Origin: Pedobacter changchengzhani
GTDB taxonomy: Bacteria > Bacteroidota > Bacteroidia > Sphingobacteriales > Sphingobacteriaceae
Length of the DNA stretch: 64,000 bases
Direction of reading: 5' to 3'
NCBI RefSeq assembly: GCF_004354365.1
Contig: NZ_SJCY01000007.1
Location: 62,001 to 126,000 of the forward strand
Part shown: one piece after another, positions 9,165 through 44,417 of the stretch
Numbering within the stretch: position 1 is the stretch's first letter
Layout of the letters: each line of letters starts with the position of its first letter
Program-made: the position numbers and the translations under genes
Notes under the pieces: model-generated
Told to the model about the DNA's origin: nothing
What the model saw: only the letters and a program-made list of their open reading frames with translations
Databases searched by the model: none

Positions 9165-9166
9165 GT

Positions 9167-9523: not shown

Positions 9524-9784
9524 AACTAGGGCTTCAAAATTTTATTTAAATATAAATAAAGATCATTTATATACAAAAGTAATATATCAACATTCCAAAA
9601 CAATAGCTGTTTAGCTTTCTACATATAAAAATTACAAATTTTCGTATAAGAATAATCGCTGTTGGTCGATTGTTATTTCATTCTTGTATAAAATCGCTAT
9701 CTCTCTTGAAACTAATTCGCCAGAATTTGCTCTTAACTACAAAACATAAAGAAATCAATTATTTAAAACTTAAAATCAAAAATC

Positions 9785-26018: not shown

Positions 26019-28949
26019 CTATCCTGCCATTCCATTAATAAACGTTTCTACAAAATCCATAATTCGTTTTAATATCCTATCGCCTAGTTTTTTACGCTGT
26101 AATAAACTAGGTTTCTCTCCTTCAATCAGTTCTAACACTTCATCTCTCAAAGGTTGTCGCTCGGCAAACAAGTAGTTTTCAATCAGCTTCTCTGTCTTTT
26201 CTGCTGATAGATTTTCTTCCCCTACCAGCTTGGTAAATTCCTTTTGCTGTTCCTGATTCCAATACTTATCAAACTCTGGTTGAATATTGTCTGTATCATC
26301 GATTACAGGTAAGTTCTCCGAAATGAATTTCTCAATCAGCTCTCGCTTGCTACGTAGCGTTGTTTCTGTACCTAACAGGTTGAAGATTTCTTGCTCTGCC
26401 TTTGTAGTGTCTTTTTGATTTTTAGATTTTAGTTTTATTAAAAGCTGAATGATGTACGCAACATTTATTTCATCGCGGTGGATTAACTCCAGTTCAAAAT
26501 CAACATCCTCTAAAATTGAAACCTTCTCTTTTTGGTGTTCGCCTTTTACTTTATCATAGAGGTCAAGGTATTTACTTTTGTAATCTTCAAATAGCTGTTC
26601 GGTCATTTCTAAATCAGCCCACTTGAAGTCAGAGAATGCACTGAGTACATTTTTTATTCTCATTAAATCCCTAAACGCCTGGACAAACGCCAGTTCATCA
26701 TCCTCTGTTTCTAACTCATTTACGCTATCTACAGTTGGCGTTAAACTGATTAAGTGATCAAAAGCTTCATCAAACTTTGCAGTATAATCTTCATAAGGTT
26801 TCATGATGATCACCTCAATGGCTTCCTTGTTGCTAAACAAAGTTATCGCTTCGTCTGTGCGGTTTTTAAGGTTTCTAAAGGCTACAATATTCCCTTGACT
26901 CTTCTGTTCATTTAGTATCCTATTCGTTCTACTATAGGCTTGTATTAAGCCGTGATGTTTTAGGTTTTTATCAACGTACATTGTGTTTAATGTAGGGCTG
27001 TCAAATCCTGTTAAAAACATATTTACAACTAACAAAATATCAATTTTGCGGTCTTTTACCTTCTTAGAGATGTCGTTATAGTAGTTGTAAAAGCTTTGGC
27101 TGTCTTTTGTGGTAAAATTATCGCCAAACAGCTTGTTATAATCACCTATAAACTCTTCCAACTTATCTCGGCTGTGCACATTTATTTTATAGTCGGCAGG
27201 CGGTTCTGCAACCATGTTTAAATCTACGTTGTCAAAATCTTCTTCGAAATTTAGATAGCCGTTTGCATCTGCATCATTTTCATTTACGCCATAACTAAAT
27301 ATGGTGGCAATGTTCAAGTTGTGCAGTCCCTCAGCTTTTTTCTTTTTAAATAGATCAACGTACTTAATCAGCGTAGCTACATTGTTAATGCAGAACATTG
27401 CCGTAAATTCTCGGCTGTGGGTTTTGCGATTGTGATGCGCAATGATGTAATCTGTTATCTTTTCTAAACGGGTTCCATCTTCCATCAACTCTTTTGTGTC
27501 GATGTCTTCTACCTCAATATCGATATTGGTTTCTCTTCCGTCTTTGTGCTTGTATCTGCCCACATACTCAACTGAAAACTTTAATACGTTTTCATCTTTT
27601 ATGGCATCGGTAATTACATATTTATGTAAACAGTCTTCAAATAAATCTTTAGTAGTACGTTTACCATGTTCATTTTTGGAAGCATTATCTGCAAAAATTG
27701 GTGTCCCTGTGAAACCAAATAGCTGTGCGTGGTTAAAAAACTGATTGATGCGTTTGTGGGTGTCTCCAAACTGACTGCGGTGGCATTCATCAAAAATGAA
27801 AATGATACGTTTATCTTTCAGTTCAGCCATTTTAGCCTCGTACTTCAACTTGGTAATTGCTGTATTTAGCTTTTGAATTGTAGTTACAATAAGTTTAGAG
27901 TTTTTAGCTTCGCCTTTCTTATCTACATAAGTGCCTATAAACTGCTTAACCAAATTTTGCGTATTGTCAGTTCCATCAATACATCCCTCTTGAAAACTAT
28001 TGAATTCTTTAGTGGTTTGATAATCCAGATCTTTTCTATCTACCACAAAAACAACTTTATGTACCTGGGGTAAAGCCATTAAAATTTGACTGGCTTTAAA
28101 ACTTGTTAAGGTTTTACCAGAGCCTGTGGTATGCCATATATAGCCGTTTTTACTGGAGTTCTTAACTCTTTCTATTAGTGCTTCAACTGCATAAAATTGA
28201 TAAGGACGAAGCAACATCGGTGTTTTATAGGCTTCATTCAACACAATGTACTTACATATCATTTTGCTCAAATGGCAAGGCTCTAAAAACGAATCGGTAA
28301 AACCATTTAAGATGTTAGACAATCTTTTATTTTCTACATCTGTCCAATAGAAAGTCTGCTTGAAACTTTGGTTTTTGTTGTTGGCGTAATATTTAGTGTT
28401 TACGCCATTACTGATAATGAAGATTTGGACGTACTGGAACAGGGCAGAATTTGCACCAAAGGAATGCCTGTGATAGCGGTTAATCTGATTGAACGCTTCT
28501 TTAAGTTCTAAACCTCTCCGTTTGAGTTCTATCTGAACCAGTGGCAAACCATTAATCAGTATGGTTACATCATAACGATTTTTATATTTTCCTTCTTGGC
28601 TGACTTGGTTGGTAACTTGATATTGATTTTGGCACCAGTGCTCAATGTTTAAGAATTCAAAATAAAGGTTGTCTCCATTATCTCTAACGATGTGCTGTTT
28701 TTGTCTTAACGTTTTACCCTTTTCAAACACTGAACCCTTGCTCAGTAAATTTAAAACCCTTTCAAATTCAGTTTGTGTAAACTGCTCACTGCCTGTTTTG
28801 GTTAATGCTGAAAGATTGTGTTTCTCCAACTGAGCTTTTAGGTTGAGCAACATATCTCCTTCGCTATTTATAGCGACATGCTTATAACCCAGTTTTTGTA
28901 ACTGGATGATGAGTTGCTCTTCTAATATTTGTTCTGATTGCTTAGCCAT
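26019..28949 (-). CDS. hsdR: Type I restriction enzyme, R subunit (HsdR)
   Basis: A 976-residue motor-nuclease subunit. The N-terminal HSDR nuclease region (about 20-220) includes RYDVTILINGLPLVQIELKR, whose D...E-x-K pattern is the PD-(D/E)xK site. The SF2 helicase core follows, with Walker A HTTGSGKT, the DEAH-like box FDECHRSQFG, GFTGTP, and motif VI QAYSRTNR. The C-terminal helical domain contacts the methylase. HsdR translocates and cleaves DNA lacking the methylation mark. The first eight codons (MAKQSEQI) are duplicated upstream at 29315-29338, indicating a rearrangement at the gene's 5' end. Confidence 0.97.
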   Translation of the reverse strand: MAKQSEQILEEQLIIQLQKLGYKHVAINSEGDMLLNLKAQLEKHNLSALTKTGSEQFTQTEFERVLNLLSKGSVFEKGKTLRQKQHIVRDNGDNLYFEFLNIEHWCQNQYQVTNQVSQEGKYKNRYDVTILINGLPLVQIELKRRGLELKEAFNQINRYHRHSFGANSALFQYVQIFIISNGVNTKYYANNKNQSFKQTFYWTDVENKRLSNILNGFTDSFLEPCHLSKMICKYIVLNEAYKTPMLLRPYQFYAVEALIERVKNSSKNGYIWHTTGSGKTLTSFKASQILMALPQVHKVVFVVDRKDLDYQTTKEFNSFQEGCIDGTDNTQNLVKQFIGTYVDKKGEAKNSKLIVTTIQKLNTAITKLKYEAKMAELKDKRIIFIFDECHRSQFGDTHKRINQFFNHAQLFGFTGTPIFADNASKNEHGKRTTKDLFEDCLHKYVITDAIKDENVLKFSVEYVGRYKHKDGRETNIDIEVEDIDTKELMEDGTRLEKITDYIIAHHNRKTHSREFTAMFCINNVATLIKYVDLFKKKKAEGLHNLNIATIFSYGVNENDADANGYLNFEEDFDNVDLNMVAEPPADYKINVHSRDKLEEFIGDYNKLFGDNFTTKDSQSFYNYYNDISKKVKDRKIDILLVVNMFLTGFDSPTLNTMYVDKNLKHHGLIQAYSRTNRILNEQKSQGNIVAFRNLKNRTDEAITLFSNKEAIEVIIMKPYEDYTAKFDEAFDHLISLTPTVDSVNELETEDDELAFVQAFRDLMRIKNVLSAFSDFKWADLEMTEQLFEDYKSKYLDLYDKVKGEHQKEKVSILEDVDFELELIHRDEINVAYIIQLLIKLKSKNQKDTTKAEQEIFNLLGTETTLRSKRELIEKFISENLPVIDDTDNIQPEFDKYWNQEQQKEFTKLVGEENLSAEKTEKLIENYLFAERQPLRDEVLELIEGEKPSLLQRKKLGDRILKRIMDFVETFINGMAG

Positions 28950-28970
28950 TATTTCTTATTGCTTTCAAAT

Positions 28971-29123
28971 TTAAGGCAAAAAATAGGCACTTAGCCTGTA
29001 ATAACTTATTTCATGTAAATAAGATAGCGCTTTGGAATTGTCTTCTATTAATAAACCTCTACTTTTTAGCTTAGCAATTTGATCATCAAAGCTAAGTGGC
29101 TTTTTGTTGTAAATTTTACTCAT
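28971..29123 (-). pseudogene. Truncated Abi_2 (AbiD/AbiF-like) abortive infection protein remnant
   Basis: A 50-codon ORF reads MSKIYNKKPLSFDDQIAKLK, then SRGLLIEDNSKALSYLHEIS and YYRLSAYFLP before a stop. This is the N-terminal signature of the Abi_2 family (K-P-L-S-x-x-x-Q-I-x-x-L-x-x-R-G-L, then the L-x-x-I-S-Y-Y-R-L-S-x-Y core). Intact members are about 300 residues, so more than 80 percent is missing. It lies between hsdS and hsdR on the same strand. Abi_2 genes are often found as cargo in type I R-M loci, so this is probably the relic of a former intact defence gene. Confidence 0.75.
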
Positions 29124-29131
29124 AACGCCTA

Positions 29132-29180
29132 TAAAAAGAGAAAACCCCCCAAGTGTGCTTCATAGAGAGGCATGGGAGGT
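29132..29180 (-). terminator. Terminator-like hairpin between hsdS and hsdR
   Basis: On the minus strand, ACCTCCCA pairs with TGGGGGGT (8 bp, one T-G wobble) around a 21-nt loop and is followed by TTTTCTCTTTTT. This resembles a Rho-independent terminator inside the R-M operon. It overlaps a nominal 82-codon ORF, which argues against that ORF being real. If active, hsdR and the downstream gene would depend on a separate promoter or on readthrough. Confidence 0.5.
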
Positions 29181-29340
29181 GTATTATCGTTATTAAAATT
29201 ATTGTCTAAAAAGAAAGACCCATGGGCTGATCTAACGAGAAGCATCACAGGTACTGTTGGTACAAATGTATATTTTTTTTTGAATTGAATAATCATTTTA
29301 AAATTATCTTTCTCTATTTGTTCGGATTGCTTAGCCATAT

Positions 29341-30507
29341 TTACACGAACATTTTTTGTAACAAGCCCTTTTTCCAAACCTCCATTTTTTTAATCTGAAC
29401 ATCGGTATATTTTATTTTATCGTCTACAGCTGATAGGAAGTTGGCTATTTTGGTCTGCTCAGGAAGATAGGGTAAGTTGATTGCTATTTTCATCAATTGA
29501 AGCTTCGACATATTATATCTTGTGCTTCCTTGCGCCAACTTAATTATTTCATTTCTGAAAATCTCGCTCCTAAAAAGATATTTAGAGAAATATGGACTTA
29601 ATATCTCTAGCGAGTTTGCTCTATACCCAAAGCAAAAACTATTCAAATACAATTCATCAATGTAATCCAAAAGCACAGAACTCATTCCTATTTCATTTGG
29701 CGTCTCAGAGGATACAGTAAAAAAGACATCACCAAATTTCGCTTTATTTTGCTTCTCCTTTACACTAATATCTACTAACTCAAACCTAGAAATATCAATC
29801 TTACTATCGTCAAAAATTTGCTTGTACTGCACGTAAGGTTTTCCTTTCCCAAAATCATCCTTAGTTTTACCGGATAAGCCACCATAGGTTTCTCCCAGCT
29901 CCCCTAACTTCTTTACTTCCCAATCTGGAAAATCTTTTCCCTCCTCATCTTTGAACCTCAGCTCTTGCGAAAATAGTTTTTGACTTATTCCCTTTTTATA
30001 ATCTTCTAAAAGGCTTTTTTTCTTTTTTAGGGATTGTATTTTTTCATCTACCGCTGTGAGGAAGCTGGCGATTTTAGTTTGTTCGGATACGGTTGGGAGA
30101 TTTAATACTATTTGTTCAATAGTACTTTTTGATAGACTTGGAACTCCACCTGCTTCATTATGCTGTTTCCAGTTGACTCTTTGAAATAAAGCGTATACAA
30201 ATTTAGGTATTGCGTCTATAAAAGAATGAGTATAAAACAACGTGTCAACAGTCCAGATTTTACCAATGAAATACATCGGTTTGTCAATTGTACCTTTTCT
30301 ACCAATGCAAACAGTCTCTCCTTCATATAAATATTGGTCAACCATAGTCATTAATCCCCCAGTACCAAAAACAGGAACGTCCCCACTAGATAAATGCTTA
30401 TAATCTCTACCACTTCCAATTTTCAGGATCTTTCCCAACTTTTTTTTTTCCCACTGCCCTTCAAATTCAGGAAATCGCAACTGTGGTATGTTCATTTGCT
30501 TTTCCAT
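29341..30507 (-). CDS. hsdS: Type I restriction-modification specificity subunit (HsdS)
   Basis: A 388-residue protein with two target-recognition domains, each followed by a conserved coiled-coil region. The internal repeat is clear. The first half starts IPQLRFPEFEGQWEKKKLG and ends EQTKIASFLTAVDEKIQSLK; the second starts ELRFKDEEGKDFPDWEVKKL and ends EQTKIANFLSAVDDKIKYTD. HsdS sets the bipartite DNA target for both methylation and cleavage. It starts (ATG 30507) two bases after the hsdM stop. The target sequence cannot be predicted by eye. Confidence 0.96.
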   Translation of the reverse strand: MEKQMNIPQLRFPEFEGQWEKKKLGKILKIGSGRDYKHLSSGDVPVFGTGGLMTMVDQYLYEGETVCIGRKGTIDKPMYFIGKIWTVDTLFYTHSFIDAIPKFVYALFQRVNWKQHNEAGGVPSLSKSTIEQIVLNLPTVSEQTKIASFLTAVDEKIQSLKKKKSLLEDYKKGISQKLFSQELRFKDEEGKDFPDWEVKKLGELGETYGGLSGKTKDDFGKGKPYVQYKQIFDDSKIDISRFELVDISVKEKQNKAKFGDVFFTVSSETPNEIGMSSVLLDYIDELYLNSFCFGYRANSLEILSPYFSKYLFRSEIFRNEIIKLAQGSTRYNMSKLQLMKIAINLPYLPEQTKIANFLSAVDDKIKYTDVQIKKMEVWKKGLLQKMFV

Positions 30508-30509
30508 TC

Positions 30510-32105
30510 TTAAAAAGGTGTAGAGATATTTAATTCAGCACAAAAGTCTGCTATTGTTTTATCAGTTGCCGTGATGCTTTCATCGAGTGCCTTAATTTCA
30601 TTTGCAATCACTTCAATGTCTATGTTTTCTTCTGCTTCAAACGTATCTACATACCTTGGTATATTAAGGTTATAATCGTTTGTAGCTATCTCCACAAGGG
30701 TCGCTTTTTTACTATACTTTAATGTTTCTGTTCTGTTCCGGTAGGTATCAATAATTAAGTTAATATGCTGTTCTCTTAATACATTTTGAGTTTTCACTTT
30801 ATCAAAGTGTGCGCTTGCATCTATAAACAAAATGTCATCAGGGTGTTCCCTACATTTTTTAAACACCAAAATGCAAGTTGGAATGCTTGTACCATAAAAT
30901 ATATTAGCAGGCAAGCCAATTACAGCATCTAAAAAATTTTTGTTCTCTATTAAATACCTACGGATGTGTTGCTCTGCACCACCTCTAAACAATGCACCAT
31001 GAGGCAATACAATTGCCATCGTTCCATTATCTGCTAAATGATAGATCATGTGTTGCACAAAAGCAAAGTCAGCCTTGCTACTTGGTGCAAGTTTACCATA
31101 TTGACTAAAACGGTCATCGCTTGTAAATAAAGGATTTGCACTCCACTGAGCCGAAAATGGGGGGTTCGCTACAATGGCTTCAAACTGCTTATCAATATGC
31201 TGTGGATGCTCTAATGTATCATCTTGTTTAATATCAAACTTGCGGTAATGCACACCGTGCAAAATCATATTCATTCGTGCAAGATTGTAGGTAGTACGGT
31301 TCATTTCTTGTCCATAAAAGTCGCTTACGTCTTCAACCTCTTTGGCAACGCGAAGCAACAAAGAACCCGAGCCACAAGTAGGGTCGTAAACAGATTTGAG
31401 TTTGCTTTTACCTGTGGTTACTATTTTGGCAAGTATTTTAGATACCTCTTGCGGTGTATAAAATTCACCTGCTTTTTTTCCTGCACCACTTGCAAACTGT
31501 CCTATAAGGTACTCGTAAGCATCGCCCAAAACATCTAATTCGGTATGCTCCAGCTTGAAATCAATTTTATCAAGGTGTGTGAGCACCTTTGCAATAATGG
31601 CATTTCTTGCTTCGGGTGTTTTACCTAATTTGGAGCTGTTCAATTCCATGTCCTCAAAGAGGTTATCAAAATCTTCCTCGCTATCCGTACCCATTGTACT
31701 CAACTGGATATTGATTAGGATCTTTTGTAGATCCTCCAGAATGAAGTTGGTTTTGCTTTCGTCAAATTTCTCTACATCATCTTCGTTATCGCCCATTCCA
31801 CGTTTAGCAACCTCGCTAAACAATTCTTCAGGCTTTAAAAAGTAACCTAATTTCTCCAGGGCTTCTTCTTTAATGGCTTCAATAAATTCGTTGCCATCTA
31901 CGGTTTTAGCCGTTATATCCCTAAACTTAATATTGTCTTGTTTTAATATCTCATTAGCGAAGATATCCATCTTCTCACTCAGATACTTATAGAAGATAAA
32001 CCCCAAAATGTAATCCCGAAACTCGTCGGCATTCATTTTACCTCTTAGTGTATTGGCTATATTCCAAAGTTGGGCTTCTAATATCTTTTTATATTCTTCA
32101 CTCAT
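30510..32105 (-). CDS. hsdM: Type I restriction-modification methylase (HsdM)
   Basis: A 531-residue N6-adenine methyltransferase. The HsdM N-terminal helical domain (about 1-150) is followed by the catalytic domain with the SAM-binding motif DPTCGSGSLLL and the catalytic NPPF (AIVANPPFSAQW). The QFASGAGKKAGEFYTPQEVS linker is typical of HsdM. It is the first gene of the operon hsdM-hsdS-(insert)-hsdR-506-residue gene, with two-base spacing to hsdS. It protects host DNA and is required for the restriction complex. Confidence 0.97.
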   Translation of the reverse strand: MSEEYKKILEAQLWNIANTLRGKMNADEFRDYILGFIFYKYLSEKMDIFANEILKQDNIKFRDITAKTVDGNEFIEAIKEEALEKLGYFLKPEELFSEVAKRGMGDNEDDVEKFDESKTNFILEDLQKILINIQLSTMGTDSEEDFDNLFEDMELNSSKLGKTPEARNAIIAKVLTHLDKIDFKLEHTELDVLGDAYEYLIGQFASGAGKKAGEFYTPQEVSKILAKIVTTGKSKLKSVYDPTCGSGSLLLRVAKEVEDVSDFYGQEMNRTTYNLARMNMILHGVHYRKFDIKQDDTLEHPQHIDKQFEAIVANPPFSAQWSANPLFTSDDRFSQYGKLAPSSKADFAFVQHMIYHLADNGTMAIVLPHGALFRGGAEQHIRRYLIENKNFLDAVIGLPANIFYGTSIPTCILVFKKCREHPDDILFIDASAHFDKVKTQNVLREQHINLIIDTYRNRTETLKYSKKATLVEIATNDYNLNIPRYVDTFEAEENIDIEVIANEIKALDESITATDKTIADFCAELNISTPF

Positions 32106-33529: not shown

Positions 33530-36337
33530 ATGAAGAAGAACTACAATGATTATTTAAAAACGAATTCAATTCGTTTAGTACCTACTATTGATAACCTTTA
33601 TTTTTTTAATGAAAAAGACTTACTCTTAGATCGGGAAATAGAAGCGAAGAAAAATGCAATAACAACTATTTTAGAAAATAAAAATCAGTATGAGCTTTTT
33701 TTAAAACAAAAAATACGTCGCCCAAATCACGATATTTATGCATGTTTTCATCCGTTTAATGAGGCCATAAAAGCGGTATATCCTTTTTTAAAAAAGCTTC
33801 AGGGTGATGTTAAAAAAGATGATGTTATTTTAAACTTATGGGATAGAAGCGGTTGGCTAACCACACTTCTTTTAGGCATATTTCCTGAACAACAAATTGT
33901 AACCACATGGGAAGGCAATAAGGATATATTAGGCTATAAGGGATTTCATTATTGGATGAAAGACATTAAAAACCTAAATATTATTTTCTGTGATTTGAAT
34001 GCTCCGTTGCCTTTTAAAGATAATAGTATTGCATTTTCTATTGGCATTGATGCTTTTCATCGTTTTGATCAGTCCTTATTATTAGAAGAATTAACGAGAG
34101 TAGTTAGCGATAACGGAGCCATTTTATTTCCACATGTGCATTTATCAAACGCTGAACCTGAGCCTTTTTTCGAAAGAGGTTGTAAACAAATTCATGGTAG
34201 CGATTACGAGGCTGTTTTTAGTCGGTTATCAAAGGTTTCGAACTGGGACGGTTATGTTTTTTCAGAACCAAATTTGTTTGTAGAGAATGACATTAATAAA
34301 TCAACTGAATTTGTTTTAAAGTCAGAACCAAGCACTTTAGATTATAATGCATTGGTAGCACTATTACCTAAATCATGGTCTAACCAAGCGCTGTCTTCTT
34401 TCTCCATAAACGATGTTAGAAATGTTGGGGAAGCAAGAATTCTAGTAAATCTATTGCTTAATATTGATTTAAATCAGCAAACAGTTACAATAGATTATAA
34501 TCAATTCGAAGGTGCAGTTGGACATTTGTTTGAAAGACATCCTATCTATGTTGAACGAATTAAACTACTTGATAATTATCAATTATCTGATTTAGCGACT
34601 AAAACCATCTATCTATCAAAGCTTGGATACACAATAAATGAGATTTGCAGTAAGTTAAATGTATCGCAAAACAGTCTCTTGTCTGAATTAGAAAAGCTAG
34701 AAAATTTAGGATTGTTGCAAGTGCTTCCTATTTCATATAACGGTATTCGCTTGCAATATCATATTATGTCTCAAGAATATTTAATTCCAAAATGCGAACA
34801 AAATATTCAAGATTTATGGCAAAAAGCATTAGCAAATTTTTCCAAAAGAACGGCCATAATCTCTTTACAAGATGAAAGTGAATTTACCTATGAGGACTGT
34901 AACGAAATCACAAACAATATCATCACAGCGCTCAATAATAGCGATTTAAAACCTGGTGATAAAATTATAATTTGCAGTAGAATAAACACTGAATCCGTTC
35001 TTTTAACATGGGCCTGCCTACGTATGGGAATAATTATTGTTCCCATAGGAACACATTTACCAGCAGATAATGTAACATATATTATTGAACTTACTGAAGC
35101 AAAGATCTTTTTCAGTAGCCAATCTTATTTCCAAGAAAACAAATCAATTATTAAAAATATTAAAACGATTCTCTTTGACGCAGAAGAACAAGAATTTGAT
35201 GAAAAATATTTTTCTGATTGGTTGAATTTTGATCGATTAAATACAGATTCTTTTCAAACAAAGACTATACTAACCGAGGATATTGCAGTTTTATTATTTA
35301 CATCTGGCTCCACCGGAATACCAAAAGGAGTTTGCCTATCCCACGGTAATTTGTTTAGAAGTGGACAATTAATAACGGATACTTTTCATTGGAAAATTGA
35401 AGACCGCTTTTTTGTTCTTGGAGGATTAGAAAGCATGAGTGGTTTAAGAAATGCAGCTATAGCTCCTCTTCATATAGGTGCTAGCATAATTATCCCTAAA
35501 GAAAACAATACCAATAATTTGTTTGCTACTACGGATTCTATTGATGAAAGCAAAGCTACAATTCTGGGTAGTAATCCTGCTTTTCTTAGACAATTGGTAA
35601 AATATAAAGATAAAATTAGGGGAAATTTAGACAGTATTAAGCGTTTAATGTGTACAGGAAACAATTTAACAAACTCGCTCCGAAATGACATCAAAGAAGC
35701 CTACAATTTGTCAATATTGAACTACTATGGGTTAACTGAGACTACCGGAATTTGTATTTCTCAACGCGCAACAGATAATTATTTAGAAGAAGAAACAATT
35801 GGAAAACCTGTTGGATGTATTGCACAAATTGTAGATGATTTCGGAAGCTTAGTTAAAAAAGGAGAACAAGGAGAGTTAAGAATTTTTAGTGAGAACCTAA
35901 TGCTCGGTTATTACAAACAGCAAGAACTAACCCAAAACACCATTAAAAACAATTGGTTTTACTCAAAAGATATTGCGAAGTACACGGAAAACGGTAACCT
36001 TCAACTTTTGGGAAGAAAAGAAGAAGTGATAAAAACAGCTAGAGAAGAGTTTATTTATCTTGATGAAATACAACGATTTATTAGCAAAATAGAATTTATA
36101 TCAGATGCTTTTGTATGTTCGTATATTAGGGATGATTCTGAAAAAATTGCTGCATTCCTAGTGTTAAAAAAGGATTTTTTATTAACTACTTCAGCGTTAA
36201 AAAATGAAATTAGCGCTCTAATTTTGAAAAATTTAGGCAAAAAAAATATCCCAAGTCAAATACAGTTTTTATCAGAACTTCCTTATACCGAGAATGGTAA
36301 ATTATCAAAAAAACAACTAATTAATGGACTCAAATAA
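33530..36337 (+). CDS. Methyltransferase-like / HTH-like / AMP-forming adenylation fusion protein
   Basis: A 935-residue protein with three parts. Residues about 75-235 look like a Rossmann methyltransferase (VILNLWDRSGWLTTLLLGIF at motif I, NAPLPFKDNSIAFSIGIDAF, then ELTRVVSDNGAILFPHVHLS), but motif I has DRSGW instead of the usual D-x-G-x-G. Residues about 345-400 resemble a winged or HTH segment (YTINEICSKLNVSQNSLLSE). Residues about 415-935 are an adenylation domain with FTSGSTGIPKG, YYGLTET, YSKDIAKY, GRKEEVIK and NGKLSK. It lacks a carrier domain. The ATG at 33530 is preferred to the adjacent TTG at 33527. It overlaps the next gene by 14 bases and leads a five-gene operon. Confidence 0.8.
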   Translation: MKKNYNDYLKTNSIRLVPTIDNLYFFNEKDLLLDREIEAKKNAITTILENKNQYELFLKQKIRRPNHDIYACFHPFNEAIKAVYPFLKKLQGDVKKDDVILNLWDRSGWLTTLLLGIFPEQQIVTTWEGNKDILGYKGFHYWMKDIKNLNIIFCDLNAPLPFKDNSIAFSIGIDAFHRFDQSLLLEELTRVVSDNGAILFPHVHLSNAEPEPFFERGCKQIHGSDYEAVFSRLSKVSNWDGYVFSEPNLFVENDINKSTEFVLKSEPSTLDYNALVALLPKSWSNQALSSFSINDVRNVGEARILVNLLLNIDLNQQTVTIDYNQFEGAVGHLFERHPIYVERIKLLDNYQLSDLATKTIYLSKLGYTINEICSKLNVSQNSLLSELEKLENLGLLQVLPISYNGIRLQYHIMSQEYLIPKCEQNIQDLWQKALANFSKRTAIISLQDESEFTYEDCNEITNNIITALNNSDLKPGDKIIICSRINTESVLLTWACLRMGIIIVPIGTHLPADNVTYIIELTEAKIFFSSQSYFQENKSIIKNIKTILFDAEEQEFDEKYFSDWLNFDRLNTDSFQTKTILTEDIAVLLFTSGSTGIPKGVCLSHGNLFRSGQLITDTFHWKIEDRFFVLGGLESMSGLRNAAIAPLHIGASIIIPKENNTNNLFATTDSIDESKATILGSNPAFLRQLVKYKDKIRGNLDSIKRLMCTGNNLTNSLRNDIKEAYNLSILNYYGLTETTGICISQRATDNYLEEETIGKPVGCIAQIVDDFGSLVKKGEQGELRIFSENLMLGYYKQQELTQNTIKNNWFYSKDIAKYTENGNLQLLGRKEEVIKTAREEFIYLDEIQRFISKIEFISDAFVCSYIRDDSEKIAAFLVLKKDFLLTTSALKNEISALILKNLGKKNIPSQIQFLSELPYTENGKLSKKQLINGLK

Positions 36338-38180
36338 CATAAATCATCTTTTAGATGAATTATCCAATAATTCGCTTTCAAAGCGCATCTTCAGCGAAAT
36401 TGATGGCAAAAAAATCAGTTATGGAGAATTAACGGCAGATATTAATAAATTGTTTGTTCTGTTTGAAAAAAATGGCTTAATAAAAGGAGACAGAATTATA
36501 CTATCAACCAAAGATGATTATTATACTTCTCTATTTTTCTTAGCCTTTTTACGCTATGGTTTAGTTACAGTTTTTTTAGATCCAGATGTACCTGTGCAAA
36601 GAGGTATGGCTATTATTCTTAAGGCGGAACCTAAAGGATTAATAATGGATGAAGAGTTGTTCTCGGAAAGACATAACAATCAAAAATCTCCTCTTTATCA
36701 ATTAAAAATTAAAAAATCAAAGCAAAAAAAGGGATCGCTCTTTAAAAAATTATTGGGGAATAAAAAGGATTCTCCCGAAATAGAAGAAGCTAATTTTCCA
36801 GCAATAATTGAGACAATAAATAATAATTTAAAGGATTTAAAGCCTGTAAATAATACGGACCTGGCCTATATCATATTTACGTCTGGTACCACTTCTGAAC
36901 CGAAGGGCGTAATGATAACGCACGAAAATCTTTTTGTTCACTTAAATACACTGACTAAAGTTTATGGCTTGAACAAAGATAGTAGATTGCTCAATATATT
37001 AATGCTATACCACGCCGATGGTTGCATACAAGGTCCGCTATTAACTGCTTACAATAAAGCAAGTTGGATACGCCCGTTTAGTTTCGATTTATCAAAAATT
37101 GATATGCTTTTCAATAGTATTTATAAATATAGAATTTCTCATTTTGTAGCCGTTCCTACACTGCTGTCCTTCATGGATAAATTTTCTGAAGGTTATGAAG
37201 ATAGTTTTCAAACAGATGATTTTAAATTTATAATATCCTGTGCTTCAAAATTAGAACGCAAGCTTTGGTTTGATTTTGAAGCGAAATTTAACACCAAAAT
37301 TTTAAATGTTTATGGATTAACAGAGACCGTTGCAGGCTCTATGTTTGCTGGAATTACTAAAGAAACTAGAAAGTTAGGCACTGAAGGGATACCTGTTGAT
37401 TGTGAAGCAAAGATAATTAAAGAAGATGGCAATGAAGCATGTATTAATGAACTAGGCAATTTGCATTTAAAAGGGAAACATTTGTTTGCTGGTTATTTTA
37501 ACGACTTAGAAGCAACCGAAAAAGTACTTAAAAACAGTTGGCTAAACACCGGAGATATTGCATTTAAAGATGAGGAAGGTTTTTATAACATTACAGGAAG
37601 AAGCAAAAATACGGTTAATTCAGGAGGTGTAAATATTTATCCAGAACAAGTTACCGAAATGGTAAACACACATCCTGATATTTTAGAAAGTATTTGTGTT
37701 GGTATTGATGATGAAACTTTTGGCGAAAAATTAGTTTGTGCCTATGTGGTTAAGCCCACTAGTGCACTGGATAAATTAACATTAATAAGTTTTTTAAGAC
37801 CTTTATTAGAACAAAATCAAATTCCTAAAGATTTTTTCATTTTTGAAGAGCTGCCAAAAGGACTTTCAGGGAAAATACAAATCAACGAAGTTAAAGACTT
37901 GATCAACGATCAAAAACAAGAAAATTCAGACAGCCATATTAATTCTTTTGATGAAACTATAATAAAAGTTGCTTCAGAATCATTTGGTGTAAGTATTACA
38001 GAGATTTTGATTTCAGATAATTCAAATACTTTAGAAGGTTGGGACTCTATGGGACACCTTGTTTTTATAACCGATTTGGAAAAAAGATTCAATGTAACAT
38101 TTTCCACAGCCGAGATGATAACTATAAATAGTTTAGCTGAAGCAAAGAGAGTATTGCTAAAAAAGATAAATTCAAAGTAA
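36324..38180 (+). CDS. AMP-forming acid:carrier ligase fused to acyl carrier domain (DltA-DltC-like)
   Basis: A 618-residue protein. Residues about 1-530 are an ANL-family adenylation domain with FTSGTTSEPKG (near 186), VYGLTET (near 329), NTGDIAF, GRSKNTVNSGGVNIYPEQ and SGKIQ. Residues about 540-618 are an acyl carrier with the phosphopantetheine serine at Ser575 (EGWDSMGHL). It would activate an acid as acyl-AMP and load it on its own carrier, doing the combined job of DltA and DltC. The A4 position reads LYHADGC rather than FDxS, so an alpha-amino acid substrate is unlikely. A lysine-rich insert at about 128-151 is unusual. It overlaps the previous gene by 14 bases and precedes the SGNH gene by three. 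Confidence 0.85.
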   Translation: MDSNNINHLLDELSNNSLSKRIFSEIDGKKISYGELTADINKLFVLFEKNGLIKGDRIILSTKDDYYTSLFFLAFLRYGLVTVFLDPDVPVQRGMAIILKAEPKGLIMDEELFSERHNNQKSPLYQLKIKKSKQKKGSLFKKLLGNKKDSPEIEEANFPAIIETINNNLKDLKPVNNTDLAYIIFTSGTTSEPKGVMITHENLFVHLNTLTKVYGLNKDSRLLNILMLYHADGCIQGPLLTAYNKASWIRPFSFDLSKIDMLFNSIYKYRISHFVAVPTLLSFMDKFSEGYEDSFQTDDFKFIISCASKLERKLWFDFEAKFNTKILNVYGLTETVAGSMFAGITKETRKLGTEGIPVDCEAKIIKEDGNEACINELGNLHLKGKHLFAGYFNDLEATEKVLKNSWLNTGDIAFKDEEGFYNITGRSKNTVNSGGVNIYPEQVTEMVNTHPDILESICVGIDDETFGEKLVCAYVVKPTSALDKLTLISFLRPLLEQNQIPKDFFIFEELPKGLSGKIQINEVKDLINDQKQENSDSHINSFDETIIKVASESFGVSITEILISDNSNTLEGWDSMGHLVFITDLEKRFNVTFSTAEMITINSLAEAKRVLLKKINSK

Positions 38181-38183
38181 TCA

Positions 38184-39095
38184 ATGAGAAAAATTGAAAC
38201 CCCATTGAAAATTTGGGTATATATTATTTTTATTTTTATTGGGATTCAGTCTATCGTTTCTTTTTTCGGTAAAAAAATAGGTAGCCAGTCTTTGATATTA
38301 CCAAATAATGAAATATATGAATCAATAAATGATTTAAAACAACCTGACTCTACAATAGAATCAAAAAAAATAGCTGTAATCGGTTCATCTTTAGTTAGTT
38401 ATGGAATAGGAGTCAGAGGTCAAAATACTGTTTCGCTATCTACAAAAACGAATCATTTAATTAAACTCACAAAAATATGGAAAATTGGAAACCCTTATGT
38501 TGAATTTGTTAAAAAAGATAAACTGCTTAAAATCCTGAAGGAAATTCACCCAGATTTAATTTGCATTCAATCAGAATTGGTTGCAGTCGATATATTCAAA
38601 AAAGATGAATTTAATTATTTACTTAGCAATTTAACGGATTACTCTTATCATAACAAATTAAGAATCTACTCCATTTTAAATTACTTAAATATTTACAAAA
38701 AAAAATATAACAAATTCAACTTAAAATCGGATGTCTTTTCAAAAAGTTATGATACGATTAATTATACACCAGCAATTAGAACAGCTAAGAAAATTAGTGA
38801 TATCGAATTTGCCTTTAATGATTTAAAAGAACTTCGAAATGCTGGTATAAAAGTGGTAATTCTCGACCTACCAAGACCTAAAAAAGTAGAAGATGAAATT
38901 TACACAAAAGAATTTAGTACAGAATTGAAAGGAATTTTGAACCTCTACAAACGAAAATTCGATATGGATTATTGGCCATACACAGGGCAACCGTTATATT
39001 ATAAAGATTTCAAAGATGGCGGACACATGAATGAAAAAGGCCGCAGGATATATACAAATTGGCTTAAAGAAAAAATTATTAAAGAGATTAAGTAA
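38184..39095 (+). CDS. Membrane-anchored SGNH-type protein (DltD/AlgX-like acyl transfer partner)
   Basis: A 303-residue protein with one N-terminal membrane helix (about 9-28) and an extracytoplasmic SGNH-hydrolase-like domain. The nucleophile block is AVIGSSLVSYG (Ser68/Ser69) and the catalytic dyad block is Asp278/His281 in DGGHMNEKG. PDLICIQSE and VVILDLPRP are intermediate conserved blocks. Size, topology and location directly before an MBOAT gene (one-base overlap, TAATG) match DltD or AlgJ/X-type proteins that finish polymer O-acylation. It was not named dltD because similarity across the whole chain was not verified. Confidence 0.75.
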   Translation: MRKIETPLKIWVYIIFIFIGIQSIVSFFGKKIGSQSLILPNNEIYESINDLKQPDSTIESKKIAVIGSSLVSYGIGVRGQNTVSLSTKTNHLIKLTKIWKIGNPYVEFVKKDKLLKILKEIHPDLICIQSELVAVDIFKKDEFNYLLSNLTDYSYHNKLRIYSILNYLNIYKKKYNKFNLKSDVFSKSYDTINYTPAIRTAKKISDIEFAFNDLKELRNAGIKVVILDLPRPKKVEDEIYTKEFSTELKGILNLYKRKFDMDYWPYTGQPLYYKDFKDGGHMNEKGRRIYTNWLKEKIIKEIK

Positions 39096-40228
39096 TGGAA
39101 TTATTGGTCAACATAATCAGTTTAAGTATTCCAATACTTTTTTTAGCTTGGTTACTTCCAGGTAAAGGGCAAGTTGCGGCAATCATTGTTGCTACAGCAG
39201 TTTTTATTGGGTTAATTTCTCCTGTTTCATTGGTAATTTTATCAACAACAAGTATTTGCAGTTATTTTGTTTTAAAGCGATACCCTACTTCTACAACAGT
39301 TGTATTAACAATAATTGTTTCATTAGCATCAATTTTTTTGTTCTTTAAATTAGAATATGGTCATCATTTTAAACTTTTAGGAAATAGGATTTTACCTTTT
39401 GGGTTATCTTATTATTCGTTCCGTCAAATCCATTACGCAATAGAAAGCTATAAAAAGAAACTTCCAAAACATCATTTTATAGATTATTTGAGCTATTTAT
39501 TCTTCTTGCCTACATTTTTTGTAGGACCAATTAATCGTTTCCAGCCTTTTCTTAAAGATTTACAGAAACGAAGATGGAACAGTACGTTATTTTCGAGCGG
39601 ACTTGAACGAATATTGTATGGATTCGTGAAAATCTCGTTGATAGGTAATTATTTATTAAGCATAAAGTTAGATAGTTTTTCAAACTCTTTAGTTCATGAT
39701 CATTTATGGTTTGCGCAATATCTTCAAATGTTTAAATTCGCTGCAAATTCGTACGTCCAATTTGCCGGTTATTCTGATGTTGCTATTGGTTTGTCTTTGT
39801 TATTTGGGTTTAACATTATTGAAAATTTCAACTATCCATTTTTAGCTAAAAATATTGCAGATTTTTGGAAACGATGGCATATTTCCCTTTCAGAATGGTG
39901 CCGAGACTATATTTTTTATCCGTTCTTAAGCATAACCCGAAATGGTAAAGTAAGTGTCATTATCACCATGTTAATTTTAGGTCTTTGGCACGAAATTTCA
40001 ATTCGATATATTATTTGGGGAATTTTACATGCCATAGCAATCAATATTTGGCATCAATACGAAGGAACCAATTTTCAAAAAAAATTAAACCATTTTCCTA
40101 AAATTCAAGCGGGAATTGGAATTTTTATAACTCTAAATTTCGTTATGCTCAGTTTTGTAATCATCAGAGAAGAGACTTTAAGTAATGCATTGGAAACTTA
40201 TAAAATTTTGTTTTTCATCAAAAACTAA
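39095..40228 (+). CDS. MBOAT-family membrane O-acyltransferase (DltB/AlgI-like)
   Basis: A 377-residue polytopic membrane protein with about ten hydrophobic segments. MBOAT signatures are FLPTFFVGPINRF, FAGYSDVAIGLSLLFG, NIADFWKRWHISLSEWCRDY and the membrane-embedded catalytic His299 in ILGLWHEISIRYIIWG. In DltB and AlgI this fold carries an acyl group from a cytoplasmic carrier across the membrane to an extracytoplasmic acceptor. It follows the SGNH gene with a one-base overlap and precedes the microprotein gene by five bases. It is shorter than DltB/AlgI (about 400-500), missing part of the C-terminal helices. Confidence 0.9.
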   Translation: MELLVNIISLSIPILFLAWLLPGKGQVAAIIVATAVFIGLISPVSLVILSTTSICSYFVLKRYPTSTTVVLTIIVSLASIFLFFKLEYGHHFKLLGNRILPFGLSYYSFRQIHYAIESYKKKLPKHHFIDYLSYLFFLPTFFVGPINRFQPFLKDLQKRRWNSTLFSSGLERILYGFVKISLIGNYLLSIKLDSFSNSLVHDHLWFAQYLQMFKFAANSYVQFAGYSDVAIGLSLLFGFNIIENFNYPFLAKNIADFWKRWHISLSEWCRDYIFYPFLSITRNGKVSVIITMLILGLWHEISIRYIIWGILHAIAINIWHQYEGTNFQKKLNHFPKIQAGIGIFITLNFVMLSFVIIREETLSNALETYKILFFIKN

Positions 40229-40233
40229 AATCT

Positions 40234-40371
40234 ATGTATAATTTTTTATTTCACCGGCTTGGAAAAAGCAAAGCAGTTATTCTAATTTCTCTGTGGTATT
40301 TACTCTTAATCTATTTACTGTTATTATCAATTGATGCCGAAGATGGAAGATTTAGATATGCAGTTTGGTAA
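40234..40371 (+). CDS. DltX-like single-pass membrane microprotein with C-terminal F-x-Y-x-x-W
   Basis: A 45-residue ORF begins MYNFLFHRLGKSKAVILISL, continues WYLLLIYLLLL and ends SIDAEDGRFRYAVW. It has a basic N-terminus, one strong membrane helix (about residues 14-32) and a polar tail ending in F40-x-Y42-x-x-W45. DltX of Gram-positive D-alanylation operons has the same size and topology and a C-terminal F-x-Y-x-x-F motif whose tyrosine carries the acyl group between DltB and DltD. Position as last gene, five bases after an MBOAT, fits that role. Aromatic Trp replaces the final Phe. The reading frame is clean, with ATG start and TAA stop, and its match to context makes a chance ORF unlikely. 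Confidence 0.72.
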   Translation: MYNFLFHRLGKSKAVILISLWYLLLIYLLLLSIDAEDGRFRYAVW

Positions 40372-40618: not shown

Positions 40619-41056
40619 ATGGGAATTTTTTCAAAAACATGTGAGTACGCAATGCGGTCGGTGTTCTTCATCGCGCACCGAACTTCAGATGGAAAAAAAG
40701 TTGGAATTAAAGAAATCTCGTTAGGCATCGACTCTCCAGAACATTTTTTAGCCAAAATACTGCAAAGCCTTAGCAAACAAGATATTGTAAAATCGGCAAA
40801 GGGGCCAAATGGTGGTTTTTACATGGATGAGGCAAACTTAAAACGGCCTTTGGCAGATGTAGTTAAAGCCATTGATGGTAGAAAAATATTTACTGGCTGT
40901 GGTTTAGGCCTAAGTTATTGCTCCGAAATAAATCCTTGTCCGCTGCACAACGATTTTAAAATAATTAGAGAAAAAATAACAAAAATGCTGGAAGAAACGT
41001 CAATCGAAAATTTTAACGAAAATTTAAACCTTGGCATTACCAGTTTAAAGAAATAG
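40619..41056 (+). CDS. Rrf2-family transcriptional regulator with three-cysteine cluster motif
   Basis: A 145-residue winged-HTH protein of the Rrf2 family (KTCEYAMRSVFFIAH, VGIKEISLGIDSPEHFLAKI, SAKGPNGGFYM as the wing). Cys94, Cys101 and Cys107 (TGCGLGLSYCSEINPCPLH) match the Fe-S ligand region of NsrR/IscR/RsrR-type sensors, with spacing C-x6-C-x5-C. Such clusters report nitric oxide, oxygen or iron status. The gene precedes a cbb3 oxidase operon with a truncated haemoglobin, which suggests control of low-oxygen or NO-response genes (inference). A dyad in its own promoter suggests autoregulation. Confidence 0.9.
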   Translation: MGIFSKTCEYAMRSVFFIAHRTSDGKKVGIKEISLGIDSPEHFLAKILQSLSKQDIVKSAKGPNGGFYMDEANLKRPLADVVKAIDGRKIFTGCGLGLSYCSEINPCPLHNDFKIIREKITKMLEETSIENFNENLNLGITSLKK

Positions 41057-41095
41057 ATCATCAATAAAATAGAAGTAAAAACAAATATGATACAC

Positions 41096-41148
41096 TTCTT
41101 AATTCAATATCATCATTTTATTATATTTAACGATAGTTGAATTAAGAA
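41096..41148. terminator. Inverted repeat after the Rrf2 gene (possible terminator)
   Basis: Perfect 12-nt arms TTCTTAATTCAA (41096-41107) and TTGAATTAAGAA (41137-41148) flank a 29-nt A/T-rich loop and are followed by TGTTTTT. It lies 40 bases after the Rrf2 stop. The weak A/T stem and long loop make it a poor terminator; it might instead be an operator for the oxidase operon downstream. The remainder of 41057-41272 holds no ORF. Confidence 0.4.
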
Positions 41149-41272
41149 TGTTTTTGGTTAGTTAAAAGTGCTAAATTTCGCTTAAATAAACACCAATATA
41201 AACCTCATCATCAAAAATAACGACTATTAGCAGTCGGAATAATAAAAATTTAAAAAGAAATAAATATACATT

Positions 41273-43390
41273 ATGGTAAACGCTTATTTATTTATGGCAC
41301 CCCAATCGCACCTACTCGTTGCGCCATCAGGCATAACTTCGCTGTTGCTCATTGTTGCATTTTTGGTCATCTTATCCGTGTTAGTTATTGCTTTATCACT
41401 TTATCGAAAAATAATGAACACACAGAAGCTAGCGAGGCAAACAGCCCTTAAAAAAAATCATCCAGATTTAAAGGAATATATTAACACCCTTAATTCCAAC
41501 CAAATAGAGGTTTTCCTAAATTATCTTGGTAATAAAGACGAGGAAAAATCTAAAATCAATAAAACTGGTATTTTGGGGTTAACAGCTTTTCTATTTCTGA
41601 TGTTTTCTGGTGAACAGAGTTTTTCTCAAACAACAGCATCAACAGGAGGAATATGGACAGAAGGTGGCATAATTATAACATTAGTGTTGCTCCTTATCCC
41701 AGTAATTGTTGGCATTTGGTTAATGATTAGCAAAACCAATAATCTGTTTAAACAATATCAACTTAAGCAAGCCTCGGAAGACGCTGATGAGCTTATCGAT
41801 ATCATTGACAATGAAGATAAAGATGAACTTAAAAAATCATTAAAGAAAAGACAGGAAGCATTAGATTACAAGTTAAGTCACCGTGAATTATCTGGCAATA
41901 TTACTGCAGAAGATACCAAAGGTTTGTTACAACAAGTGGATATTGAGGCAGATTTACCAGTTGTTTCGTTAAAAAAGCGAGCAATAAAACGTCCGCCGAT
42001 TGATCCTGCCCTTGCAAAACTTATTTTATGGTTTATCGGCACAGCAGCCTTTTGGCTCATTTTTGGAACAACAGTTGGCGAATATTTGGGCATTAAGTTC
42101 GTTGCGCCAGATGTAGATCAATTAAGCTTTTTAAGTTTCGGTAGGTTAAGGCCAGTACACACCAATGCCGTATTTTGGGGTTGGGCATCTTTAGGGATGT
42201 TGGGTTTAGGCTATTACGTGGTTCCTCGCGTAAGCAACGCACCGCTTAAAAGTATAAAAATGGGATGGTATACGCTCATCCTTATTAATATTACCGTAGT
42301 GCTCGGTACAATCTGTTTAATGTCTGGCATTAATAATGGTGGTGGCGAATACCGAGAATACATTTGGCCAGTTATGCTAATGTTCGGTATTGGCTTAATA
42401 CTTACGTTAATTAACTTTATCGGCACCATTGCGCAAAGAACAACCAAAGAAATTTACATTTCCAATTGGTATATCGTAGCATCGGTAATTTTTGCCATTG
42501 TAATTTCTTTTGTGGCTTATATTCCAACTTGGCAGGATGGATTGGGCGAAACCATTATACAAGGTTATTACATGCACCAAGGCGTAGGAATGTGGTTTAT
42601 GTTGTTTATGTTGGGTGTGGTTTATTATTTCTTACCTCAACAACTTAACAAACCTATTTATTCCTACAGTTTAGGCATTTTAGCCTTTTGGACGCAGATT
42701 TTATTCTACACCGTAATTGGTACGCACCATTTCGTATTCAGTTCTATACCTTGGTGGTTGCAAACTACAGCTATTGTGGGCAGTATGGGTATGGTAATTC
42801 CGGTTGCAGCAGGTACAACAAATTTCTTGCTCACCTTTAAAGGTTCTTGGTACAAAATCCCATCAAGTTATACGTTGCCATTTTTTATAATCGGGATTAT
42901 ATTTTATTTTACTGGCTCTTTACAAGGCACAGCAGAAGCTTTTAGATCGACCAATTTAATTTGGCACTTTACCGATTTTACGGTTGCCCACTCCCATTTA
43001 ACCATGTATGGCATTATTTGTTTTTTCCTTTGGGCAGGAATTTATGCGGTAGTACCGAGGTTAACCGGAAAGGAAGCACCGCAAATTACCGTTGGCGCAC
43101 ATTTTTGGCTCGCCCTGATTGGTTTGTTGATTTATACGGTACCATTAATGTACGGCAGCACACTTAGAGGAATGATGTGGGTTGATAAAAAACCTTTTAT
43201 TGATACCGTTGTATTTATGGCGCCTTATTGGCTATGGAGAGCAATTGGCGGAAGTTTAATGTGGTTATCTCACATCTTTTTTGCCTATAATTTTTATAAA
43301 ATGCTTACCGGTACTACAACTATTAATGCAAGTGAAGTTGCTATACAAAAGCTTAATGAAAACACTGCACATTCAGAAAACAGTTTATAA
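41273..43390 (+). CDS. ccoN: cbb3-type cytochrome c oxidase subunit I, N-terminally extended (CcoN)
   Basis: A 705-residue haem-copper oxidase subunit. Residues about 245-690 are the CcoN core, with low-spin haem His in RPVHTNAVFWG, CuB ligands in YYMHQGVGMW and GTHHFVFS, haem ligands in DFTVAHSHLTMYG, and the cross-link Tyr six residues before the His pair (FYTVIGTHH). The first 240 residues are an extension with two membrane segments (about 20-45 and 95-155), an embedded segment resembling an internal signal (FSGEQSFSQTTAST) and a charged linker. It reduces oxygen to water with high affinity in the inner membrane. ccoO follows by 16 bases. Confidence 0.92.
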   Translation: MVNAYLFMAPQSHLLVAPSGITSLLLIVAFLVILSVLVIALSLYRKIMNTQKLARQTALKKNHPDLKEYINTLNSNQIEVFLNYLGNKDEEKSKINKTGILGLTAFLFLMFSGEQSFSQTTASTGGIWTEGGIIITLVLLLIPVIVGIWLMISKTNNLFKQYQLKQASEDADELIDIIDNEDKDELKKSLKKRQEALDYKLSHRELSGNITAEDTKGLLQQVDIEADLPVVSLKKRAIKRPPIDPALAKLILWFIGTAAFWLIFGTTVGEYLGIKFVAPDVDQLSFLSFGRLRPVHTNAVFWGWASLGMLGLGYYVVPRVSNAPLKSIKMGWYTLILINITVVLGTICLMSGINNGGGEYREYIWPVMLMFGIGLILTLINFIGTIAQRTTKEIYISNWYIVASVIFAIVISFVAYIPTWQDGLGETIIQGYYMHQGVGMWFMLFMLGVVYYFLPQQLNKPIYSYSLGILAFWTQILFYTVIGTHHFVFSSIPWWLQTTAIVGSMGMVIPVAAGTTNFLLTFKGSWYKIPSSYTLPFFIIGIIFYFTGSLQGTAEAFRSTNLIWHFTDFTVAHSHLTMYGIICFFLWAGIYAVVPRLTGKEAPQITVGAHFWLALIGLLIYTVPLMYGSTLRGMMWVDKKPFIDTVVFMAPYWLWRAIGGSLMWLSHIFFAYNFYKMLTGTTTINASEVAIQKLNENTAHSENSL

Positions 43391-43406
43391 TTTCAATTAA
43401 ATTAAC

Positions 43407-44417
43407 ATGGAATTTTTTAATAACCACACCAAATTATTTATTACTGCCTTTCTGCTTTTCGCAGGATTAACACTTTTGGTTTGTATAATCCCTGCACTTA
43501 ACAATCAAAGCAACAATGCACCCTTACCAATGGCAGTACCGCTTAGCGATATGGCAATTAAAGGAAAAGGTGTTTTTATTGCAAATGGTTGCGTGGGTTG
43601 CCATACCCAGCAGGTAAGAAATGTAGATATGGATAAAGTTTGGGGCGAGCGCCCGAGCATTGCTGCGGATTATGCAGATATACACCGTACCGATTTTTGG
43701 CGAAATACGGCAACGTTAATGGGTACCGAACGTACAGGACCAGATTTAACCAGTATTGGTACACGCCAACCTAGTAAAGAATGGCAATTGCCACATTTAT
43801 TTAATCCACGTATTTTGATCAAAGAATCCATTATGCCTGCTTATCCATGGATGTTTGAGATAAAAGATAAAGCCCAACCGGGCGATGTAGTAGTAAATAT
43901 CCCCGAAGAGTATTTAGGTGGTAGAAAAGGAAAAGTAATCGCGAAAGCAGAGGCGCTAGAATTATTGGCCTATTTACAGTCGTTAAAACAAACTAAGTTG
44001 CCAAGTGCATCTCCTCAACCTGCTTTTCTTTACGGTAAAGTTGGCGAAGAAAGTGATGCTAAACCGGGTGCAACCAAAGAACTTAACGGCGGAATGTTAT
44101 ACACAAATAACTGCCAAAGTTGCCACCAACAAAATGGCGAAGGTTTAAAAGGTGCATTTCCGCCGCTAAAAGGTAGCAAAGTAGTAACTGCCGAAGATCC
44201 AGAATTACTTGTTAACATCATCATGAATGGCTACACCGGAAGAGAGAAAGAGGGCTATCCTGCAATGCCTCCAATTGGTACAAATAACCGATTAAAAGCC
44301 GAAGAAATTTCTGCAATTATGAACCATGAACGTACAAGTTGGGGCAATAGTGCTAAAAAAGTAACGGTTGATGAGGTTAAAAAATTAATGGAAAAAGTTA
44401 AAGTAAAAGCTAAATAA
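43407..44417 (+). CDS. ccoO: CcoO cytochrome c subunit fused to a second cytochrome c domain
   Basis: A 336-residue protein with an N-terminal membrane helix (about 8-30). The first c-type haem site is Cys62-Cys65-His66 (GCVGCHTQQV) in a typical CcoO context (MGTERTGPDLTSIG, MPAYPWMF). A second is Cys236 to His240 (NNCQSCHQQNGEG) in a separate monohaem domain with AMPPIG as Met ligand region. The second domain resembles half of CcoP. Fusion of CcoO to one CcoP-like domain gives two haems in one chain instead of the usual one plus two in separate subunits. No separate ccoP is present in this operon. Confidence 0.92.
   Translation: MEFFNNHTKLFITAFLLFAGLTLLVCIIPALNNQSNNAPLPMAVPLSDMAIKGKGVFIANGCVGCHTQQVRNVDMDKVWGERPSIAADYADIHRTDFWRNTATLMGTERTGPDLTSIGTRQPSKEWQLPHLFNPRILIKESIMPAYPWMFEIKDKAQPGDVVVNIPEEYLGGRKGKVIAKAEALELLAYLQSLKQTKLPSASPQPAFLYGKVGEESDAKPGATKELNGGMLYTNNCQSCHQQNGEGLKGAFPPLKGSKVVTAEDPELLVNIIMNGYTGREKEGYPAMPPIGTNNRLKAEEISAIMNHERTSWGNSAKKVTVDEVKKLMEKVKVKAK

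Follow-up and report, generated by a model that had tools for sequence, protein, structure and literature searches.

A putative Dlt-type envelope acylation module in Pedobacter changchengzhani and scattered Bacteroidota

Five adjacent genes in the Gram-negative bacterium Pedobacter changchengzhani quite likely encode, by analogy with characterized systems, a Dlt-type envelope acylation machine divergent from its Gram-positive counterpart, with the chain of transfers recognizable in outline. Its parts, their candidate catalytic residues and their conserved co-occurrence are read from sequence. A preliminary description of this locus had recognized the parts and proposed a Dlt-like logic, both of which stand, but the identification of the individual proteins as DltA, DltB, DltD and DltX proper is not supported. 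The module appears to work like Dlt, yet it lies outside the Dlt families, since the models for DltB, DltX and DltD are missed and the MBOAT falls in a clade of its own. Its recurrence across genomes, together with an invariant microprotein tyrosine and the retention of the key residues, makes the Dlt mechanism the most likely one.

Gene organization and distribution

The stretch of DNA analysed (the window) is 64,000 nucleotides long and forms part of contig C33 of a 3.9 Mb genome. The five genes lie on the plus strand between 33530 and 40371 (Table 1), separated by overlaps of 14 and 1 bases and gaps of 3 and 5 bases, exactly as first described, and an in-frame TTG at 33527 precedes the start of MT-ANL1. 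The operon has a G+C content of 30.7%, near the minimum for 6.8-kb stretches of the window (range 30.5 to 37.0, mean 34.4). To its left are hsdR, hsdS and hsdM of a type I restriction-modification system (26019-32105, minus strand), and to its right an Rrf2-type regulator followed by COX1 cytochrome oxidase and FixO-like genes (40619-44417).

Table 1. Genes of the putative acylation module, in window coordinates.
Product	Position	Strand	Length (aa)
MT-ANL1, fusion of a methyltransferase-like domain and an AMP-forming ligase	33530..36337	+	935
ANL2-ACP, AMP-forming ligase with C-terminal carrier domain	36324..38180	+	618
SGNH acyltransferase-like protein with one N-terminal membrane helix	38184..39095	+	303
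Short MBOAT protein without fused C-terminal shuttle motif	39095..40228	+	377
Membrane microprotein with C-terminal acyl-shuttle-like motif FRYAVW (FxYxxW)	40234..40371	+	45

This type of MBOAT was found at 26 loci, 25 in Bacteroidota and 1 in Myxococcota; these are independent loci and include the window, with L034 and L052 counted as one locus and L039 and L076 as another. Scanning public genome contigs yielded 22 named relatives, of which 21 have this MBOAT type, and four further loci came from the phylum, order and class samples. Carriers include Saprospiraceae, Ferruginibacter, Flavobacteriaceae, Cytophaga, Lewinella, Hymenobacter, Spirosoma, Ekhidna and Flavisolibacter, among others, and one scan relative labelled Deltaproteobacteria belongs to Myxococcota in the tree taxonomy. 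A Butyrivibrio locus (L056) was left out because its MBOAT has the length of AlgI/PatA proteins (486 aa).

All five genes occur together at 19 loci, in the same order at 17. The order MT-ANL1, ANL2-ACP, SGNH, MBOAT, microprotein is complete at 15 loci, at 2 more the first gene is cut by the contig start, and at 2 loci all five genes are present with the SGNH gene relocated. Joint occurrence at 19 loci places the grouping beyond chance, so the proposed conservation of the five-gene set holds. Other loci depart from this pattern to differing degrees. G009 lacks MT-ANL1 and has a second ANL2-type copy instead, L051 has ANL1 with the methyltransferase domain absent, and in G310 the MBOAT and microprotein are on one contig while the methyltransferase domain is a short separate frame ending another. 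Two more loci are cut by contig ends. The incomplete sets that count against the proposed route are those of Ekhidna lutea (L049), where the MBOAT and microprotein stand alone with no ligases or SGNH protein nearby, and of a Lewinella contig (L055), which has no SGNH protein or microprotein. In L049 (7957-10218) the pair directly follows an arsenosugar-type arsM gene (NF038099, 562 bits, cut-off 400); the genes next in line in L055 (8560-9302) resemble, by eye, a toxin-antitoxin pair.

A check for conservation in Pedobacter and its relatives came out negative: only one other short MBOAT of this type appeared among 301 genomes of the same family, and the copies most similar to it come from different families and orders. 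The rest of the same-family matches listed are mostly of AlgI/PatA length (about 460-550 aa). This MBOAT occurred in none of the 350 other genomes of the order sample, and no relative of the system was found in viral contigs. Overall the module is rare, in about 1% or fewer of the sampled genomes, and patchy. The nearest copies of the window MBOAT come from Ferruginibacter, Saprospiraceae and Sphingobacteriia and not from the same-family genome G009. These nearest copies outside the family, the low G+C of the operon and the sparse distribution point to horizontal spread, and the module has probably moved in this way.

A divergent four-gene version occurs outside the Bacteroidota on a plasmid of the alphaproteobacterium Sulfitobacter pontiacus (NZ_CP049347.1; L080, 8926-12740), consisting of a ligase-carrier gene, an SGNH-like gene, an MBOAT gene and an unannotated microprotein that ends DQIIYIDLQEAQ, with no second ligase in the region read. 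It lies a few kilobases from three glycosyltransferase-type genes and is the sole locus among those found that hints at a glycan acceptor. On Halomonas and Paraburkholderia plasmids with matches to ANL2, the 15 kb read contained neither an MBOAT nor an SGNH protein matching this family. Among the neighbours of the Bacteroidota loci there was no shared family that would name an acceptor, and no polymer genes stood beside the loci.

The MBOAT protein and its separate microprotein

The window MBOAT matches the Pfam MBOAT family (2.4e-27), and its His262 and His299 are invariant in 24 sequences. Its closest PDB chain is DltB (6bug, 6.9e-38), and DltB structures (6bug and 8jem) are its only strong solved relatives, so that it does not group with enzymes acting on free lipids. 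Its identification as DltB proper is nevertheless not supported: it scores 195 bits against the NCBIfam DltB model TIGR04091, whose cut-off is 375, and the MBOATs of four relatives score 134-180, against 551 for the control, L. oris DltB. In a tree of 45 rows (26 of this family, 1 from Sulfitobacter, 4 DltB and 14 AlgI types), the family rows and Sulfitobacter are separated by a branch with 98/95 support from the DltB and AlgI types, which form two separate clades on the other side, although the long branches call for caution.

In known systems the shuttle motif FxYxxF either closes the DltX chain or, in the PatA-like ones, is fused to the MBOAT (PMC12148441). All 28 AlgI-type MBOATs from the same family carry a fused FxYxxF-type motif at the C-terminus, and no such motif is present at the C-terminus of the window MBOAT, which suggests that the microprotein and this MBOAT complement each other. 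Four AlgI-type MBOATs with the fused motif, in same-family genomes (L015, L024, L026 and L027), have a gene for a carrier protein of about 80 aa nearby, so that carrier-linked MBOAT pathways may exceed the range stated in the literature. The window's own genome also has an AlgI-type MBOAT, adjoining an SGNH-like gene, whose reading frame is interrupted, leaving parts of 192 and 276 codons (G000:C1, about 221014-223366; L079 1515-3867, minus strand); this is a broken gene or a sequencing error.

Of the 26 loci, 25 have a homologue of the microprotein close to the MBOAT, in frames of 45-48 codons, a size at which genes are easily overlooked by gene finders. The Dlt arrangement of a short MBOAT without a fused motif and a separate microprotein with a C-terminal tyrosine is therefore found at these 25 loci. 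Tyr42 is invariant in all 25 copies, F40 is nearly so, and the C-terminus reads FxYxx[W/Y/L] in most. Within two close pairs of microproteins, codon changes at positions 1/2/3 number 6/1/17 and 11/1/25, and this dominance of third-position changes, combined with the invariant C-terminal tyrosine, indicates a real gene. Basic residues precede a single hydrophobic stretch and the motif follows at the very C-terminus, as would be expected if the C-terminus lies outside.

The microprotein had been described as DltX-like, which holds for its separateness and its invariant tyrosine, whereas membership in DltX proper is not supported. It has no Pfam match; four members gave no match to Pfam DltX (PF12459), which recovered the S. 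aureus DltX control at 2.1e-14. Comparison with the DltX profile gave a weak match (probability 22%), and a search of the microprotein profile against the PDB returned nothing useful. With the Pfam model missed, the profile match weak and most C-termini departing from FxYxxF, identity as DltX was rejected.

The SGNH protein

The SGNH assignment rests on a predicted fold (pLDDT 81), which matches SGNH hydrolases such as TesA, and on conserved candidate catalytic residues, Ser69, Asp278 and His281, the latter two forming the Asp-x-x-His of the superfamily. Ser69 and His281 are invariant in 20-21 sequences and Asp278 is kept in 20 of 21. The protein has no Pfam match and misses in particular the Pfam DltD model (PF04914; S. 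aureus DltD control 7.2e-103), so that its identification as DltD proper is not supported. A sequence profile search against the PDB returned nothing relevant, the matches coming from the fold search alone.

Two ligases, one carrier and the possible cargo

MT-ANL1 comprises a class I methyltransferase-like domain (about residues 70-260), a winged-helix-like region (about 330-410) and an AMP-forming ligase (about 423-930) with matches to Pfam AMP-binding (1.7e-60) and AMP-binding_C. By Pfam the methyltransferase stays under its cut-off (15.4 versus 21.2 bits), and a sequence profile search of the domain against the PDB gave a weak HTH match alone. The predicted fold of residues 1-415 (pLDDT 85) shows a Rossmann-like class I methyltransferase with additional small domains behind it, and has 655 PDB matches at E<=0.001, the top ones methyltransferases. 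The glycine-rich SAM motif I is absent and a conserved LWDR[ST]GW stands in its place, so SAM binding is not assured. In the phylum sample the first domain occurs in 3 of 396 genomes, exactly the 3 with this MBOAT, which makes the methyltransferase domain part of the system; together with the clear fold, this confirms the leading methyltransferase-ligase fusion as genuine.

ANL2-ACP likewise matches Pfam AMP-binding (4.7e-54) and AMP-binding_C. Its C-terminal PP-binding match is below threshold (16.7 versus 20.8 bits), and the candidate phosphopantetheine serine, Ser575, lies in a GWDS motif that is invariant in 19 sequences. The carrier thus has the serine of the Dlt carrier and, unlike DltC, is fused to a ligase. 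That there are two ligases and one carrier counts against the proposed Dlt-type route. Both ligases keep the core ANL motifs, and almost every copy has the C-terminal Lys.

For neither ligase is identity with DltA proper supported, as both score best with general acyl-ligase models. The closest solved relatives of ANL1 are an NRPS subunit and aryl/acyl ligases, with DltA lower in the ranking, and it scores 133-145 bits against DltA models whose cut-offs are 476-560. The closest solved relatives of ANL2 are oxalate-CoA and malonyl-CoA ligases, and DltA models are not among its best 25 profile matches. The amino-acid-binding motif, SFD in DltA, reads MSG in ANL1 and H-x-D-G in ANL2, invariantly in both. 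D-alanine as the cargo is therefore not supported: the DltA models are not reached and the A4 motif differs.

A different amino acid could be carried by the same machine. A cargo such as beta-alanine or GABA, with the amine at the beta or omega position, would yield a positively charged surface, a somewhat doubtful reading for which the resemblance of ANL2 to oxalate and malonate ligases speaks. Where those enzymes have His (LFHVHG, IYHTHG), ANL2 has an invariant Asp (LYHADG), a replacement that could reflect an amine in place of the second carboxylate of the substrate, although this reading of the pocket comes from an alignment and not from a bound structure. VinN, reportedly a precedent for a shifted Asp in beta-amino-acid ligases, is given no evidential weight here. 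At one locus (L072, in G301) a class III aminotransferase gene (8324-9700, minus strand) shares bases with the start of MT-ANL1. Among solved structures its product is closest to taurine:2-oxoglutarate aminotransferase, which hints, as a lead and not a result, at an amino acid with its amine off the alpha carbon. Against such a cargo, the aminotransferase is present at that locus only.

Proposed route and alternatives

The order of transfers from donor to tyrosine, serine and acceptor follows from Dlt and PatAB biochemistry (PMC12148441). By its domains, ANL2 would use ATP in the cytoplasm to activate a small carboxylic acid as acyl-AMP and load it onto the phosphopantetheine of its own C-terminal carrier, with MT-ANL1 presumably contributing to the synthesis or loading of the donor. 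The MBOAT, judged by its homology with DltB and PatA, would collect the acyl group from the carrier on the inner side of the membrane and place it on Tyr42 of the microprotein on the outer side, from which Ser69 of the membrane-anchored SGNH protein may accept it, as proteins of this kind do. The last step would be transfer by the SGNH protein to a hydroxyl on an acceptor in the envelope, a surface glycan being the most likely candidate. The acyl-transfer function claimed for the locus is supported by this analogy, with the catalytic residues invariant or nearly so and the gene set conserved.

It is unlikely that the cluster instead builds or modifies a small molecule or lipid for secretion, with the MBOAT acylating that product and not an envelope polymer. 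Natural-product clusters commonly contain two ligases, a carrier and a methyltransferase, and the lack of polymer genes beside the Bacteroidota loci would fit, but the conserved set has no condensation, ketosynthase or exporter gene, and a membrane-anchored SGNH protein with a shuttle microprotein marks envelope acylation (PMC12148441).

A true dlt operon, acquired horizontally and D-alanylating an envelope polymer, is very unlikely. The parts list does match dltXABCD, and dlt or D-alanine systems have been reported in a few Gram-negatives (PMC5541007, PMC4448142); none of the DltA, DltB, DltD and DltX models is reached, however, an aligned SFD motif is missing from both ligases, and the MBOAT lies outside the DltB clade. 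An O-acetylation system of the AlgI/PatA type, likewise laid out as MBOAT plus SGNH, with unrelated ligase genes nearby is extremely improbable given a short MBOAT without fused motif, a separate microprotein and ligase-carrier genes held in fixed order within the set conserved at 19 loci. The diverged Dlt-type machine is the reading we retain.

Relation to known systems and significance

With the Gram-positive Dlt system (DltX, DltA, DltB, DltC, DltD) the module shares a ligase, a carrier, a short MBOAT, an SGNH protein and a separate FxY microprotein. It differs in its Gram-negative hosts, in the fusion of the carrier to a ligase and of a second ligase to a methyltransferase domain, in the clade of its MBOAT, in an SGNH protein and a microprotein outside the DltD and DltX models, and in a motif that ends in W, Y or L where that of Dlt ends in F. 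PatA-PatB and AlgI-type O-acetylation systems share the MBOAT, the SGNH protein and the shuttle tyrosine, but carry the motif as a fused part of the MBOAT and draw on acyl-CoA as donor, with no carrier involved (PMC12148441). AlmEFG, which adds glycine to the LPS of Vibrio cholerae, also uses a ligase and carrier to feed an amino acid to a Gram-negative envelope (PMC3783018), whereas AlmG is of the lysophospholipid acyltransferase kind and MBOAT, SGNH protein and microprotein are lacking. Dlt-like systems reported from Gram-negatives are the dra locus of Bordetella and the dlt genes of Dickeya and Pectobacterium, which are tied to antimicrobial peptide resistance (PMC5541007, PMC4448142). Their descriptions, as D-alanine systems, set them apart. 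We know of no methyltransferase-ligase fusion in any of them.

No description of this module was found in the open-licence literature. According to a 2025 study of PatAB, MBOAT-SGNH pathways outside Dlt have neither a carrier protein nor a DltX-like microprotein (PMC12148441). The module has both, in Gram-negative hosts and with an MBOAT outside the DltB clade, which places a separate tyrosine shuttle beyond the Gram-positive system. We tentatively suggest, as a possibility, that it represents a third bacterial MBOAT-SGNH branch, independent of DltB and AlgI, one that would combine carrier-bound donors and a separate tyrosine shuttle with an acyl group new to bacterial envelopes, built by the methyltransferase-ligase fusion and destined for a surface glycan of Bacteroidota.

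The module offers diverse sequences with which to study the movement of the motif between two active sites, and its carriers include the culturable Spirosoma panaciterrae, Cytophaga aurantiaca and Flavisolibacter ginsengisoli. For the organisms that bear it, it predicts a surface modification not described so far, with possible effects on surface charge and on how sensitive the cells are to cationic peptides.
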